From NCBI GenBank assembly GCA_003660555.1, contig QMUK01000078.1:1-5366 (forward strand): a stretch of 5,366 nt of DNA, read 5' to 3'. Numbering within the stretch: the first letter of the stretch is position 1; every line of letters begins with the position of its first letter. This stretch comes from Thermococci archaeon (lineage in GTDB: Archaea; Hadarchaeota; B88-G9). Position numbers and translations under genes: made by a program. The notes beneath the pieces are model-generated. The model saw nothing but the letters and a program-made list of their open reading frames with translations. It ran no database searches and was not told the origin of the DNA. Of the stretch, positions 776-5,127 are shown in pieces.

Positions 776-1459
776 ATGCCTGTATACGTATATTTCCAAG
801 GTCGAGACTTCCTCTATTCCAAGTTCTTCGGCTATTAGGTTCATAGCCATTTCAAGGGAATTGGGTGTAGCTTTGTTCACGTTCAGATAAACTCCCCTGT
901 TGTCTCTTATTGTCATGACTATTCCTCTAGTCCCAGAGTAATCTCCCTCCATTTCCGATACGTATTTCGATATTAGAATTGGGCTAGTCTCGTTTTTGGT
1001 AGTAATTCCAATCTCTGTGGATAAATAACAATATTCAACGCCTTCTAGATTGCATATCTCTCTTAACTTAGATATCAAATTTTCTATTTCTGCTCCCTTG
1101 TAATTTCCCGGAGGTACTTTCTCTATAGATATGTAGTATTTCAGGGGAGTTATCTCAACTCTATAAGCAGATAAATGGACGTTTGGATTGAACCTTATTC
1201 CTACAGTGTATTGGATCCCATCATCGTCCATGACCCTGAGGGTGCCTCCTATTGCTCCTATTGCTATGCCTTCAATCTGTCTAGTCTTTCCAGATGAGTT
1301 TTCGAATCCGAATGCTCTCACGTAAACTGTGTATCCTTGACCCTCTAGCTCTACGTATTTCTTAGCTGCCTCTATACTTACCTCATATGCGAACTTCGTT
1401 TTAATCGGCGTAGTTAGTAGAAGCACTACTAAAACAAAAAGAGGTGCCTTGTTACTCAT
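695..1459 (-). CDS. Exported protein of unknown family
   Basis: This 254-residue protein starts with ATG. The N-terminus looks like a Sec signal peptide: K4, a hydrophobic core of about residues 5-17, and a plausible cleavage after A24 (KTKFA/YEV). The rest is soluble-looking, alternating predicted beta strands and helices with no second membrane segment, so it is probably secreted or held outside the membrane. The mature part has only two cysteines, C136 and C144, which could form a disulfide. It also has two N-glycosylation sequons (N54-S-S and N156-E-T), fitting an archaeal surface protein. I do not recognise the family and propose no function. Its ATG lies inside the 3' end of the HIT gene (8-nt overlap, ATGAGTAA), so translation is probably coupled to that gene. 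Its 3' end runs 81 bases into the convergent membrane-protein gene. Confidence 0.85.
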   Translation of the reverse strand: MSNKAPLFVLVVLLLTTPIKTKFAYEVSIEAAKKYVELEGQGYTVYVRAFGFENSSGKTRQIEGIAIGAIGGTLRVMDDDGIQYTVGIRFNPNVHLSAYRVEITPLKYYISIEKVPPGNYKGAEIENLISKLREICNLEGVEYCYLSTEIGITTKNETSPILISKYVSEMEGDYSGTRGIVMTIRDNRGVYLNVNKATPNSLEMAMNLIAEELGIEEVSTLEIYVYRHSRVPIEGDVVIVPGEGVTSFFKTEGN

Positions 1460-1976
1460 GATTATCCTTCCTCTCTTTCTTTAGCTGATCCAGCTTAGAT
1501 TTGAGTTTATCATAGGTCTCCTCTAGGGCCTCGGGTATGACCTTCACGTCTGCCAAAACGGGCATGAAATTGGTGTCCCCGTTCCACCTAGGGACTACGT
1601 GGATGTGAATGTGGTCCTCTAGACCTGCTCCTGCTGCTCTTCCTATGTTTATTCCTATGTTGAACCCATCTGGACTCATCTCCTTTTCTATTACTTGTAT
1701 AGCCACTTTGATTAAGTCCCACATCTCCAAGATTTCTTCTCTAGTCAGCTCCCCTATTTCGGACACATGTCTATAAGGCGCTACCATGAGGTGTCCAGGA
1801 TTATATGGGAAGGAATTCATTATTATGAAGGATTTAGTTGCTCTCAGTAGTATCTTGTTCTCTTTATCTTTTTCTTTGTCCTGTCTTGGGAATTCACAAA
1901 GGAAACATTCCTTTCTCGATTCTTCCTTTGCTATTTCTATGTATTTTATTCTCCAAGGCGCCCATATTCTTCTCAA
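1452..1976 (-). CDS. HIT family protein (zinc-type; Ap4A phosphorylase/hydrolase-like)
   Basis: This is a histidine triad nucleotide-binding protein, a cytosolic family that hydrolyses or transfers nucleotidyl groups (AMP esters, Ap4A and related dinucleotides). The N-terminal RIWAPWR-KYI is typical of the Ap4A phosphorylase-like HIT branch. A CFLC pair follows, then NSFPYNPGHLMVAPYRHV, and finally the triad HIHIHVVPRW. In family terms the middle triad histidine is the nucleophile. The two cysteines, the RHV histidine and the first triad histidine probably bind zinc. The C-terminal 30 residues are a charged helix rich in Lys/Glu. I favour the TTG start at 1976 because AGGTG sits 6 nt upstream; a GTG at 1985 would add three residues but has no SD. 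The first gene of a two-gene unit, it overlaps the exported-protein gene by 8 nt. The substrate cannot be fixed from sequence. Confidence 0.93.
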   Translation of the reverse strand: MRRIWAPWRIKYIEIAKEESRKECFLCEFPRQDKEKDKENKILLRATKSFIIMNSFPYNPGHLMVAPYRHVSEIGELTREEILEMWDLIKVAIQVIEKEMSPDGFNIGINIGRAAGAGLEDHIHIHVVPRWNGDTNFMPVLADVKVIPEALEETYDKLKSKLDQLKKERKDNHE

Positions 1977-2013
1977 GAGTAACACCTACTTGCTGAGTGA
2001 TGTGCTCCCCCCT

Positions 2014-2032: not shown

Positions 2033-2746
2033 TTACCTTACGCCCAGTAACAGCTCGTTTGGAATCACTTTTCTGATTGAACTGAGTAGATGTACTATTG
2101 GAGGAGAGAGTTTTCCACTAAATCCGATTTTCCTTTTTCTCATTTCGTCTAGTAAGTCCAGGCTCATACTAGTGACATAAGCATTTCCCAATTCGAAGGG
2201 GAAGTGGGCATCGCTACCAGCGGTCATCAGTTTCTTCCTAGAGTTCTCACGGTATGCGGAAATGGCCTCTATATTTGGTTTTAAGCTGAGACATCTTGAA
2301 TTGAATACTTCTATCCCATCTAATTCATTATAGAGAGATGCTACGCTACTTCTATGTGTGTCAAATGGGTGTGGAGCTATTGCTATTCCATCTTGATCTC
2401 TTATCTCGTCTATTACTTCATTAAACTCTCTAGACTTCACTTCTTCCTGAATAAATAGTGCTAGTACTTCTCCCTTATTGGTTCGTATCTCTTCTCCAAT
2501 TACCAATAGGAGGTCTGTTGATTTCCTATCTATTATCTTTTTCAGAGCAAATGCTCCTTTTATCTCGTTATGATCCGTAATAGCTATCCCATTTAGCCCT
2601 TTCCTAATAACGATTTTTGGTATTTCACTCGGTTTGATCAAAGCGTCTTTAGAATAAATCGTGTGGACGTGTAAGTCAAATTTATAGTAATCTCCAGCAG
2701 TATGGTGCTTTTCTTCACTATTAATTTGTGCATGTCTCTTATTCAA
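2033..2746 (-). CDS. PHP-domain metal-dependent phosphoesterase
   Basis: This 237-residue protein has the full set of PHP motifs, characteristic of metal-dependent phosphoesterases with a distorted TIM barrel. They are DLHVHT (residues 24-29), S32/D34, AITDHN (55-60), GEE (84-86), APHPF (124-128), FNSR (148-151) and GSDAHF (177-182). The conserved His, Asp and Glu residues are the expected ligands of a two- or three-metal site, so it should be active. The C-terminal part from GSDAH onward fits the PHP-associated C-terminal region. Substrates in this family range from phosphate esters of amino-acid and nucleotide metabolism to DNA ends, so the substrate is open. No ATG precedes the first motif. 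The TTG at 2746 is chosen because AGGAGG lies 10 nt upstream. It leaves an 18-20 residue hydrophilic extension before DLHVHT. It lies 130 nt downstream of the initiator gene, in the same direction, with no terminator visible between them. Confidence 0.93.
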   Translation of the reverse strand: MNKRHAQINSEEKHHTAGDYYKFDLHVHTIYSKDALIKPSEIPKIVIRKGLNGIAITDHNEIKGAFALKKIIDRKSTDLLLVIGEEIRTNKGEVLALFIQEEVKSREFNEVIDEIRDQDGIAIAPHPFDTHRSSVASLYNELDGIEVFNSRCLSLKPNIEAISAYRENSRKKLMTAGSDAHFPFELGNAYVTSMSLDLLDEMRKRKIGFSGKLSPPIVHLLSSIRKVIPNELLLGVR

Positions 2747-2824: not shown

Positions 2825-2878
2825 GGCAGAGGGGTGCCAGGGGTAGCCGGGCTGTGTCTGGCTACTCCACAATTTTTT
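2825..2878 (+). ncRNA. Candidate small structured RNA of unknown class
   Basis: A GC-rich island stands out in A/T-richer surroundings between two minus-strand genes. It has two consecutive hairpins. The first is GGCA (2825-2828) pairing with TGCC (2835-2838) across a GAGGGG loop. The second has 13 base pairs, 2840-2852 with 2856-2868, and a UGU triloop. Three pairs of the second stem are G-U, which hold only in plus-strand RNA; the minus-strand transcript would have A-C mismatches, so the strand is well determined. A BRE/TATA lies at the right distance upstream and TTTTTT (2873-2878) ends the element. I tested it by eye as a tRNA, a C/D guide and an H/ACA guide (an ACA follows the stem) and none fits. 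It could instead be a terminator with no separate RNA. The class is unknown. Confidence 0.45.
2840..2878 (+). terminator. Hairpin plus T6, intrinsic-terminator-like
   Basis: The 13-bp stem (2840-2852/2856-2868, loop TGT) is followed by ACAA and then TTTTTT at 2873-2878. Archaeal RNA polymerase stops mainly at U-runs, so the T6 is the functional part and the stem may be the body of the RNA. The T-run exists only on the plus strand. It ends inside the complement of the orc1/cdc6 stop codon (2877-2879). Confidence 0.5.
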
Positions 2879-3959
2879 AGAGCATATCTAGATATTCCCT
2901 TACTTTTTCCTTGGGAAACCTGAGATACACTTCCCTAGCCCTAGTAGACCCTGGGAGAGGCCTTAACTCTACGAGTCTATACCACTCTAGTCTCTGCAGT
3001 AGTTTCCTAAAGTGTTGAGGAGTTCTGCTAACTTCCTCGGAGAATAGCTCATACAGCTCTGGAGTAGATATTCCCTCCTCACTTTCAGCTATTTTCCTTA
3101 GAAGAGTTCTCTCCTCCTCATCCAAGCTATGTAGGAGTATCTTCATGCTGATGTACTTCGCCTCCTTGAATGCTTCCTTTATCTCTCTGGTTCCTACCCT
3201 CTCTTTTCCTCTGTTCTCTGCTATTATTCCTGCTCTTCTGAGAATTTCAAGTCCGACTCTTACGTCTCTATTTTCATTGTACGAATAATGAGATGCTAAT
3301 CTAATAGCTTCGTCTTCAATCTTTCCAGGTAGGAACGCCTCTCTCGCTCTATTCCTGAGTATCTCAGTTATCTCCTCTAGTTCGTATGGTGGAAAGTATA
3401 TTTCTCTACCCATGTAGCTCCTCAATCTCGGGTCTAGATCTTTTGGAGCAGTTGCTTCATTCATTATGCATATTATTCCAATTTTAGCTTCCTCTTCGAA
3501 CTCGTTGAATCTCAAGAAATTATATAAGATTTCCTCTCCGTTCTTAGTCCTTAGGAGTGCATCTATCTCATCCAATGCTAGTATCACACCAATGTCCTTA
3601 GCCCATTCTCCTATTGCTGACAAGTATTTCTCCCTAGATGCCTTTGGCGGTCTTCTCCCTGTTATGGACCTCACCACTTCAGAGAGAAGCTGAGAGGGAG
3701 ATGGATGGAAGAAACAATTCACATAGGCAGTTTTTACTTCTCCCACTTCTTCCTCTGCTATTCTCTTAAATAGGAACTTAACACCTCCTGTTTTCCCTGT
3801 AGAAGTTGGACCTATGCATAGACAGTTAAATGGTCTTCTTCCAGTGAATATGGGTCTCACTGAGTCAGAGATTTCTCTGAGTTGCCCTTCTCTATGAACA
3901 AACTTCTCTGGAACGTATTCGAATGTGAGCGCTTCCTCTCTCTTGAAGACCTCACTCAC
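2877..3959 (-). CDS. Orc1/Cdc6-family replication initiator (AAA+ ATPase)
   Basis: This is an origin-binding AAA+ ATPase that marks replication origins and helps load the MCM helicase. Counting from the ATG at 4013, it shows the family entry YVPEKFVHRE (33-42), Walker A GPTSTGKT (68-75), Walker B LALDEID (145-151), sensor-1 N185, the DLDPRLRS arginine-finger region (192-199) and a sensor-2 region NRDVR (248-252). The canonical sensor-2 motif is GDxR; here the Gly is replaced but Asp and Arg remain. A C-terminal winged-helix domain (about 295-378) completes the normal architecture. I prefer the GTG at 3959 (360 residues). A BRE/TATA lies within the first codons read from 4013, that ATG has no SD, and starting at SEVFKREEAL matches the usual family N-terminus. 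The alternative is ATG 4013, 378 residues. It diverges from the pheS operon. Initiator versus regulatory paralogue cannot be told. Confidence 0.93.
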   Translation of the reverse strand: MSEVFKREEALTFEYVPEKFVHREGQLREISDSVRPIFTGRRPFNCLCIGPTSTGKTGGVKFLFKRIAEEEVGEVKTAYVNCFFHPSPSQLLSEVVRSITGRRPPKASREKYLSAIGEWAKDIGVILALDEIDALLRTKNGEEILYNFLRFNEFEEEAKIGIICIMNEATAPKDLDPRLRSYMGREIYFPPYELEEITEILRNRAREAFLPGKIEDEAIRLASHYSYNENRDVRVGLEILRRAGIIAENRGKERVGTREIKEAFKEAKYISMKILLHSLDEEERTLLRKIAESEEGISTPELYELFSEEVSRTPQHFRKLLQRLEWYRLVELRPLPGSTRAREVYLRFPKEKVREYLDML

Positions 3960-4043: not shown

Positions 4044-4553
4044 TTGAAGGACTCGGGACTCCTGATTTCCATCAGAGACGACGTCTTTACACTCTTGATA
4101 GATGGGAAACTAAGAGAAGTAACACTAGATGACGATAGCTTGAGGTTCCTTAGGTATATTGTCTTTGAAGAACTGTTGTCCGAGGGACATAATGAATTCC
4201 ATCTTTCGACTTTATTTTTCTCGAGAAATTTAGATGAAGATGACCTTAAACTCTTCGAAGAGAGAATGAAAGTTTACGGAAGAGAAGTTCCGATCGAAGT
4301 ACATCTAATTACGTCAGGAAAGGAAGGAAGGGTTTTAGTTAGGATAGAAGAGAAAATTTCTTACGAAGAATTCTGTGCCTTGGAGAATCTGCTTTCAAAA
4401 AAGATCGAAAAAATTCTAGAAGAAGGTAAAAAACATTTGGAAAGTCGTTATCGTGCAAAAATACTTGGGTCCTCAATAGAAAATCACATAGTGAAACTTT
4501 ACCCACTCATAGGCAGATCCGTGAAATTAGAGAGGGTGTCTGAGATTGGTTGA
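4044..4553 (+). CDS. Hypothetical protein, first gene of the pheS operon
   Basis: I do not recognise this protein (169 residues from TTG 4044, or 172 from GTG 4035). It is charged and soluble, with no signal peptide or membrane segment. The N-terminal half looks alpha/beta (GLLISIRDDVFTLLIDGKL, then a helix around FLRYIVFEELL). A beta pair follows (VPIEVHLITSG, GRVLVRIEE). A long amphipathic helix rich in Glu/Lys runs from ISYEEFCALENLL through KKHLESRYR. The short C-terminal part ends VKLERVSEIG. TTG 4044 is preferred because AGGTG (4033-4037) sits 6 nt upstream, the same arrangement as the HIT gene. It is transcribed away from orc1/cdc6 and overlaps the next gene by 8 nt, so translation coupling is likely. 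Its place before pheS suggests, weakly, a role in information processing. Confidence 0.75.
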   Translation: MKDSGLLISIRDDVFTLLIDGKLREVTLDDDSLRFLRYIVFEELLSEGHNEFHLSTLFFSRNLDEDDLKLFEERMKVYGREVPIEVHLITSGKEGRVLVRIEEKISYEEFCALENLLSKKIEKILEEGKKHLESRYRAKILGSSIENHIVKLYPLIGRSVKLERVSEIG

Positions 4554-5127
4554 GGTAATGTTTTCAATTGAGTTCGAGAGTGCCTTGCCTTGGAAGAGAT
4601 ATTTCGTATCAGAATTAGGGACGATCTTCAGAGAATTGTTCATAGTTGGTGTAGCACTATCTGGAAAGTGTGTTTCTGACCCAGCAGGAGTTTTCCATCT
4701 GACTTCTGAGTTGAATTTGCCTCGAGGAAAAGTTGTCTCGATATTAGGCAAGGTTGTGAGAAGAGGTGGGATTAATCTAATAGAGCCCGTCGAAGTCCAT
4801 TTGGTCGGTACGTCCTCCTATGCGTCTTGGTGTCTAGAGACTCTAAGGCAAACAGTTAAAAGGATAAAGAGGGTTGAGGAGAGCGACCCAATTGGGGGTG
4901 CATGGGAAGAGATAGAGAGGAACAAGTACTTGAGACTAATTCGAGATTTGATGTCTTGGAGGATCACGGATGGAAATACGTGGAATAGAAAGGAAATTAC
5001 TCTACGAATTGAAGTCACTCAAGGTAGCGGAATTAGAGCAGTTGTCAAAGGCATTGAACGAGGACATAGCGTCAGTGATGAGAGCTTCCAAAGAATTAGA
5101 GAACAAAGGATTAGTGAAATTGCGTGA
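4546..5127 (+). CDS. Hypothetical protein overlapping the start of pheS
   Basis: I do not recognise this 193-residue protein. It has no signal peptide or clear membrane segment. A hydrophobic helix (SELGTIFRELFIVGVALSG) is followed by a Leu/Pro/Gly region with LNLPRGKVVSILGKVVRRGG, a strand VEVHLVG, and basic helices around LRQTVKRIKRVEES and EEIERNKYLRLIRDLMSW. The TTG at 4546 has GAGGGTG 7 nt upstream (4532-4538) and overlaps the previous stop by 8 nt; ATG 4558 is the alternative. The oddity is the 3' end: the frame runs 158 bases past the pheS start, so the last 52 residues are encoded by sequence that also encodes pheS in another frame. A frameshift, real or a sequencing error, around 4878-4970 would instead end it at 4951 or 4988. 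The body to about residue 145 is the safer part. Confidence 0.65.
   Translation: MVEVMFSIEFESALPWKRYFVSELGTIFRELFIVGVALSGKCVSDPAGVFHLTSELNLPRGKVVSILGKVVRRGGINLIEPVEVHLVGTSSYASWCLETLRQTVKRIKRVEESDPIGGAWEEIERNKYLRLIRDLMSWRITDGNTWNRKEITLRIEVTQGSGIRAVVKGIERGHSVSDESFQRIREQRISEIA
4958..4966 (+). promoter_or_regulatory. Ribosome binding site of pheS
   Basis: GGAGGATCA contains a perfect GGAGG core (4958-4962) with 7 nt to the ATG at 4970. It is the strongest plus-strand SD in the window and fixes the pheS start, even though it lies inside the upstream reading frame. Confidence 0.8.

Follow-up and report, generated by a model that had tools for sequence, protein, structure and literature searches.

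A candidate small RNA gene between an orc1/cdc6 paralogue and a PHP-domain gene in an archaeal genome

In Pyrococcus abyssi, the intergenic sRk RNAs lie in GC-rich islands, as found in AT-rich hyperthermophile genomes, and were detected by Northern blot (PMC3124441). In Methanosarcina mazei, sRNA162 is a regulatory sRNA with both cis and trans targets (PMC3510493). Archaeal U-tract terminators consist of 4-7 U and mostly act without a hairpin (PMC8716108). The element described here, positions 2825-2878 of a 5,366-nt stretch of DNA (the window), shares with the sRk RNAs that it is GC-rich, structured and intergenic and that it has its own BRE/TATA at the proper distance. Unlike those blot-detected RNAs, it was read from sequence alone and has no relative outside its species. 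sRNA162 offers a possible working model, in which one RNA pairs with cis-encoded as well as trans-encoded mRNAs, the likeness being one of possible mechanism. The T6 at the 3' end of the element resembles the archaeal U-tract terminator, from which the element differs in that a 13-bp hairpin precedes the T6 and that no upstream plus-strand protein gene is served.

The window corresponds to contig 92 of an archaeal assembly of 1.30 Mb in 150 contigs, the sole member of its family among 28 genomes of the phylum. Given that the mean GC content of its tRNAs is 69% as compared with ~42% for the genome (194-kb sample), the source genome points to a thermophile lifestyle. The element lies in a 130-bp gap flanked on either side by minus-strand genes, an orc1/cdc6 paralogue and a PHP gene. 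The features of the region are as follows.

1452-1985, minus strand: HIT-family gene with its own promoter at the expected place (matrix score 10.9)
2033..2746, minus strand: PHP-domain metallohydrolase, 237 aa, with a TTG start and GGAGG upstream; matches to PF02811 and PF13263
2791..2807, plus strand: promoter GGTAAACGATATATATC, with BRE AAA at 2794-2796 and TATA ATATATAT at 2799-2806; matrix score 14.95
2828 (alternative 2825; range 2825-2833), plus strand: predicted transcription start, from TATA spacing, tRNA spacing and a C-A step
2825-2828/2835-2838, plus strand: hairpin 1, GGCA/UGCC, a weak 4-bp stem with the 6-nt G-rich loop GAGGGG; -6.2 kcal/mol at 37 C
2840-2852/2856-2868, plus strand: hairpin 2, the RNA core, 13 bp with three G-U pairs and a UGU loop; -21.3 kcal/mol
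2873-2878, plus strand: T6 U-tract, predicted terminator or 3' end, with a 2-nt overlap with the cdc6 stop codon
2877..4013, minus strand: orc1/cdc6 paralogue, 378 aa; matches to TIGR02928 and Cdc6_lid

Between cdc6 and a start resembling that of phenylalanine-tRNA ligase alpha lie two plus-strand frames (4044-4553 and 4546-5127), neither of which has a match in Pfam or NCBIfam.

A hairpin and a U-tract in the gap

Read on the plus strand, the element consists of the 4-bp hairpin, the 13-bp hairpin, ACAA and then TTTTTT, the last of which reaches into the cdc6 stop codon (2877-2879, minus strand). An earlier, sequence-only reading of this DNA had described a two-hairpin, GC-rich plus-strand element ending in TTTTTT, with three G-U pairs in its 13-bp stem, and both descriptions are borne out: the fold of plus-strand 2825-2878 has an energy of -29.0 kcal/mol with a z of -4.52 (0 of 200 shuffles as good), and the three pairs are present in the stem. 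At 85 C hairpin 1 is predicted to be open while the 13-bp stem is still paired. The G-U pairs by themselves are weak evidence for the plus strand, three on one strand being a 1-in-8 accident.

Comparison with the genome, for which a 194-kb sample of the 1.3 Mb served as background, revealed that no perfect hairpin of at least 12 bp on either strand of that sample matches 2840-2868 in stability, and that no other such hairpin has a tail of five or more T. None of 20,000 random 54-nt windows of the same genome folded at -29 kcal/mol or below, the best reaching -26.4. The hairpin region is 70% GC in a genome of 42%, and 309 of the 193,522 windows 44 nt long are at least as GC-rich as the element; because GC-rich stretches alone are less rare, it is the fold, the strand and the T-run that carry the weight.

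The same DNA could act in the minus-strand mRNA, either as a stabiliser in the cdc6 3' UTR or as an element of the PHP 5' leader, as its site between two genes read in the same direction would allow. The minus strand keeps 10 of the 13 pairs of the long stem; however, its fold is weak for the element alone (-15.1 kcal/mol, z -1.65) and ordinary over the full 151-nt gap stretch (z 0.44), it carries no U-tract 3' of cdc6, and a plus-strand promoter would be left unexplained. We therefore regard an mRNA element as improbable. The two genes themselves are probably co-transcribed, with PHP read from upstream, given that no U-tract follows cdc6 on the minus strand and that a matrix scan of the gap found no promoter of tRNA type upstream of PHP (best minus-strand score 1.8).

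A promoter comparable to those of tRNA genes

The promoter matrix was built from 60-nt regions upstream of tRNA genes of the same genome. Twenty-two of these regions, not all of which have clear promoters, yielded a 17-nt motif whose majority form, GATAAAAGTTATATATC, is in keeping with an archaeal BRE plus TATA. The site at 2791-2807, which lies outside the training set, scores above the median of the tRNA promoters (11.0) and has the highest score in the window on either strand. Among 388,164 background positions a single one reaches this score; it is itself a tRNA promoter, as is the next best.

It could be argued that the TATA is accidental and faces outward, or represents the reverse face of a PHP promoter, with the hairpin and U-tract serving as an insulator that stops antisense transcription into cdc6; a short RNA would then be made but have no function of its own. 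The palindromic nature of ATATATAT, the position of the U-tract exactly at the 3' end of cdc6 and the terminator-like combination of hairpin and T-run are all compatible with such an arrangement. The promoter is nevertheless oriented: given a score of 14.95 on the plus strand versus 1.8 at best on the minus strand toward PHP, the TATA box at 2799-2806 belongs to the plus strand. Moreover, a stable, strand-specific stem right after the promoter exceeds what an insulator would need; because archaeal U-tracts terminate mostly without hairpins (PMC8716108), the hairpin more likely serves the function or the stability of an RNA than termination. An insulator is a doubtful explanation, though one that deserves to be kept in mind. 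We also rejected the idea that the element terminates a plus-strand gene lying upstream, since the nearest such gene in the list of open reading frames of the window ends at 775.

The predicted start follows from spacing. In archaea, the centre of the TATA box lies ~27 nt ahead of the start (PMC5316973), which from a TATA centre at 2802.5 gives 2829-2830, and in this genome mature tRNA 5' ends lie mostly 36-42 nt from the start of the motif, which places the start of the element at ~2827-2833. Pyrimidine-purine steps are present at 2824-2825 and at 2827-2828 (C-A). Both spacing rules favour a start at 2827-2833. The earlier claim of a BRE/TATA with a start at 2825 is accordingly upheld for the promoter, which is of tRNA grade, while the exact position 2825 depends on the spacing chosen. 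With a start at 2828, the weak first hairpin would lose most of its 5' arm; this hairpin may be only partly transcribed, part of the arm lying upstream of the true start.

Between the TATA and the start there is also a palindrome, AGGTCCGACCT (AGGTC-C-GACCT), at 2811-2821, which is possibly a putative regulator site on the RNA promoter and possibly a product of chance.

Copies, known RNA classes and the replication origin

A second copy of the element, identical to the first, was found in 'Candidatus Bathyarchaeota archaeon ex4484_205' (L002, contig NJEE01000060), whose sequence is 99.8% identical to the window where aligned ungapped and which belongs to the same species. At positions 3001-4290 of L002 there are several tandem duplications, one of which doubles the promoter of the small RNA while others lie in cdc6, and a deletion of ~106 bp relative to the window. 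Since the contig carries these other duplications and the deletion, we treated the doubled promoter as a likely assembly error, as the other rearrangements probably are too.

This same-species assembly aside, DNA searches, made in the 28 genomes of the phylum and in 394 genomes in all, found no homologue in the 393 other archaeal genomes, and a single-sequence covariance model, run on 28 genomes of the phylum and 394 in all, gave only weak matches outside the species. The best of these, which came from three genomes belonging to a single distant genus, fall inside a 551-aa reading frame that we read as a putative methyl-coenzyme M reductase alpha (mcrA); lying within a long coding frame, they were rejected as relatives and ascribed to chance. 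The cdc6-PHP neighbourhood does not recur within the phylum: in each genome that has relatives of both genes, they are either distant from one another or sit on separate contigs. When viral contigs were searched by protein for cdc6 and PHP, neither turned up; the 25-nt core of the element is absent from the viral collection, and a repeated or mobile element was rejected, the element being single copy in the genome. The lack of conservation outside the species would suit a GC-rich palindrome that arose by chance and is never transcribed. Yet each of the three features, promoter, fold and T-run, is uncommon in the genome, and here they stand in order and at the proper spacing, so that we consider an accident highly improbable.

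The sequence-only reading had also stated that the element fits no RNA class that could be tested by eye, and we came to the same view for the classes below. Rfam contains no family for 2825-2878 at either gathering or permissive thresholds; the match to sR10, which scored 9.8 bits where the cut-off is 45 (E 2.5), was attributed to chance, and it has no D box here. A box C/D guide was rejected, as both the C box (RUGAUGA) and the D box (CUGA) are absent from 2825-2878. The element resembles a box H/ACA guide RNA in that its hairpin is directly followed by ACA (2869-2871), but its stem is fully paired, with neither a pseudouridylation pocket nor a k-turn, and Rfam gives no match; this class was rejected as well. 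ARAGORN found no tRNA or tRNA fragment in the element, and a tRNA remnant was discarded, given that alignment of the element to 30 tRNA-model matches of the genome was no better than that of shuffles (102 of 200). As for a small protein, the only candidate start is a GTG at 2834, opening a 29-aa frame that runs antisense into cdc6, lacks a properly spaced SD and has no homologues.

The adjoining orc1/cdc6 gene and the presence of a GC-rich inverted repeat beside an AT-rich stretch raise the question of a DNA element, i.e. an Orc1/Cdc6 binding site or an origin next to the initiator gene. The gap contains no ORB-like motif (TTCCAGTGGA), and matches to it within the window are at chance level, whereas at the other orc1/cdc6 locus of the genome (L029, G000:C27) a clear ORB cluster lies upstream of the gene at 2689-2992, with dense TTCCAGTGGA repeats that carry G-tracts and occur in both orientations. 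That cluster is likely the chromosomal origin of the genome, and the cdc6 of the window is therefore a paralogue without visible ORBs. We rejected an ORB site or origin here and judge a DNA element the least probable of the readings considered. Beside the ORB cluster, a palindromic repeat of 42 nt occurs in two identical copies, at 3088-3129 and 3152-3193 of L029, spaced 64 nt apart.

The proposed RNA and its possible action

Promoter, fold and T-tract follow one another in this order, at this spacing and on this strand. A tRNA-grade promoter, an exceptional plus-strand hairpin and an immediate U-tract, together with the lack of an upstream plus-strand gene in need of a terminator and of any Rfam or tRNA match, favour a small RNA gene, and an independent gene of this kind is the reading best supported by the sequence. 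With a probability that we put at roughly 0.6, 2828 (or 2825) to ~2876 is a small RNA gene with the predicted transcript. The original proposal of such a gene thus stands as regards promoter, plus-strand fold and U-tract; the exact start at 2825 and any link to replication found no support, the latter being a matter of proximity only, with the likely origin repeats found at the other orc1/cdc6 gene.

The strong BRE/TATA promoter would start a plus-strand transcript whose length we infer to be ~48-54 nt. The predicted RNA would begin with a G-rich stretch that is for the most part unpaired (AGAGGGGUGCCA), continue with the rigid and very stable 13-bp hairpin and end in a U6 tail, which would stop transcription at the cdc6 stop codon; hairpin and tail would make the RNA stable and might offer a binding site for Sm/Lsm. 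Since cdc6 and PHP are probably co-transcribed, the RNA would be perfectly complementary to the spacer of the presumed cdc6-PHP mRNA, and its most likely action would be base pairing, either there, in cis, or in trans with other mRNAs through its G-rich 5' end. A search for trans targets of the 5' 12-mer found its own site as the only exact match, and sites with one mismatch were no commoner than for the reversed control. Pairing, whether with the cdc6-PHP spacer or in trans, is suggested by position only, and we infer it more weakly than the transcript itself. That a lineage-specific antisense RNA sets the level of the Orc1/Cdc6 paralogue in this archaeon is, in our estimate, quite unlikely; its logic would be comparable to the antisense control of plasmid initiators.

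The sequence of the RNA is probably new and its kind already known. To our knowledge, hardly any of the small RNAs of uncultured lineages of archaea have been mapped, since searches based on conservation miss RNAs confined to a single species. Here, the tRNA promoters of the same genome provided a yardstick for an orphan promoter, which together with the fold and the T-tract yielded a candidate RNA gene that has no homologue. More speculatively, if it is true that the RNA acts on the overlapping cdc6-PHP mRNA, an archaeal replication initiator would be under RNA control.
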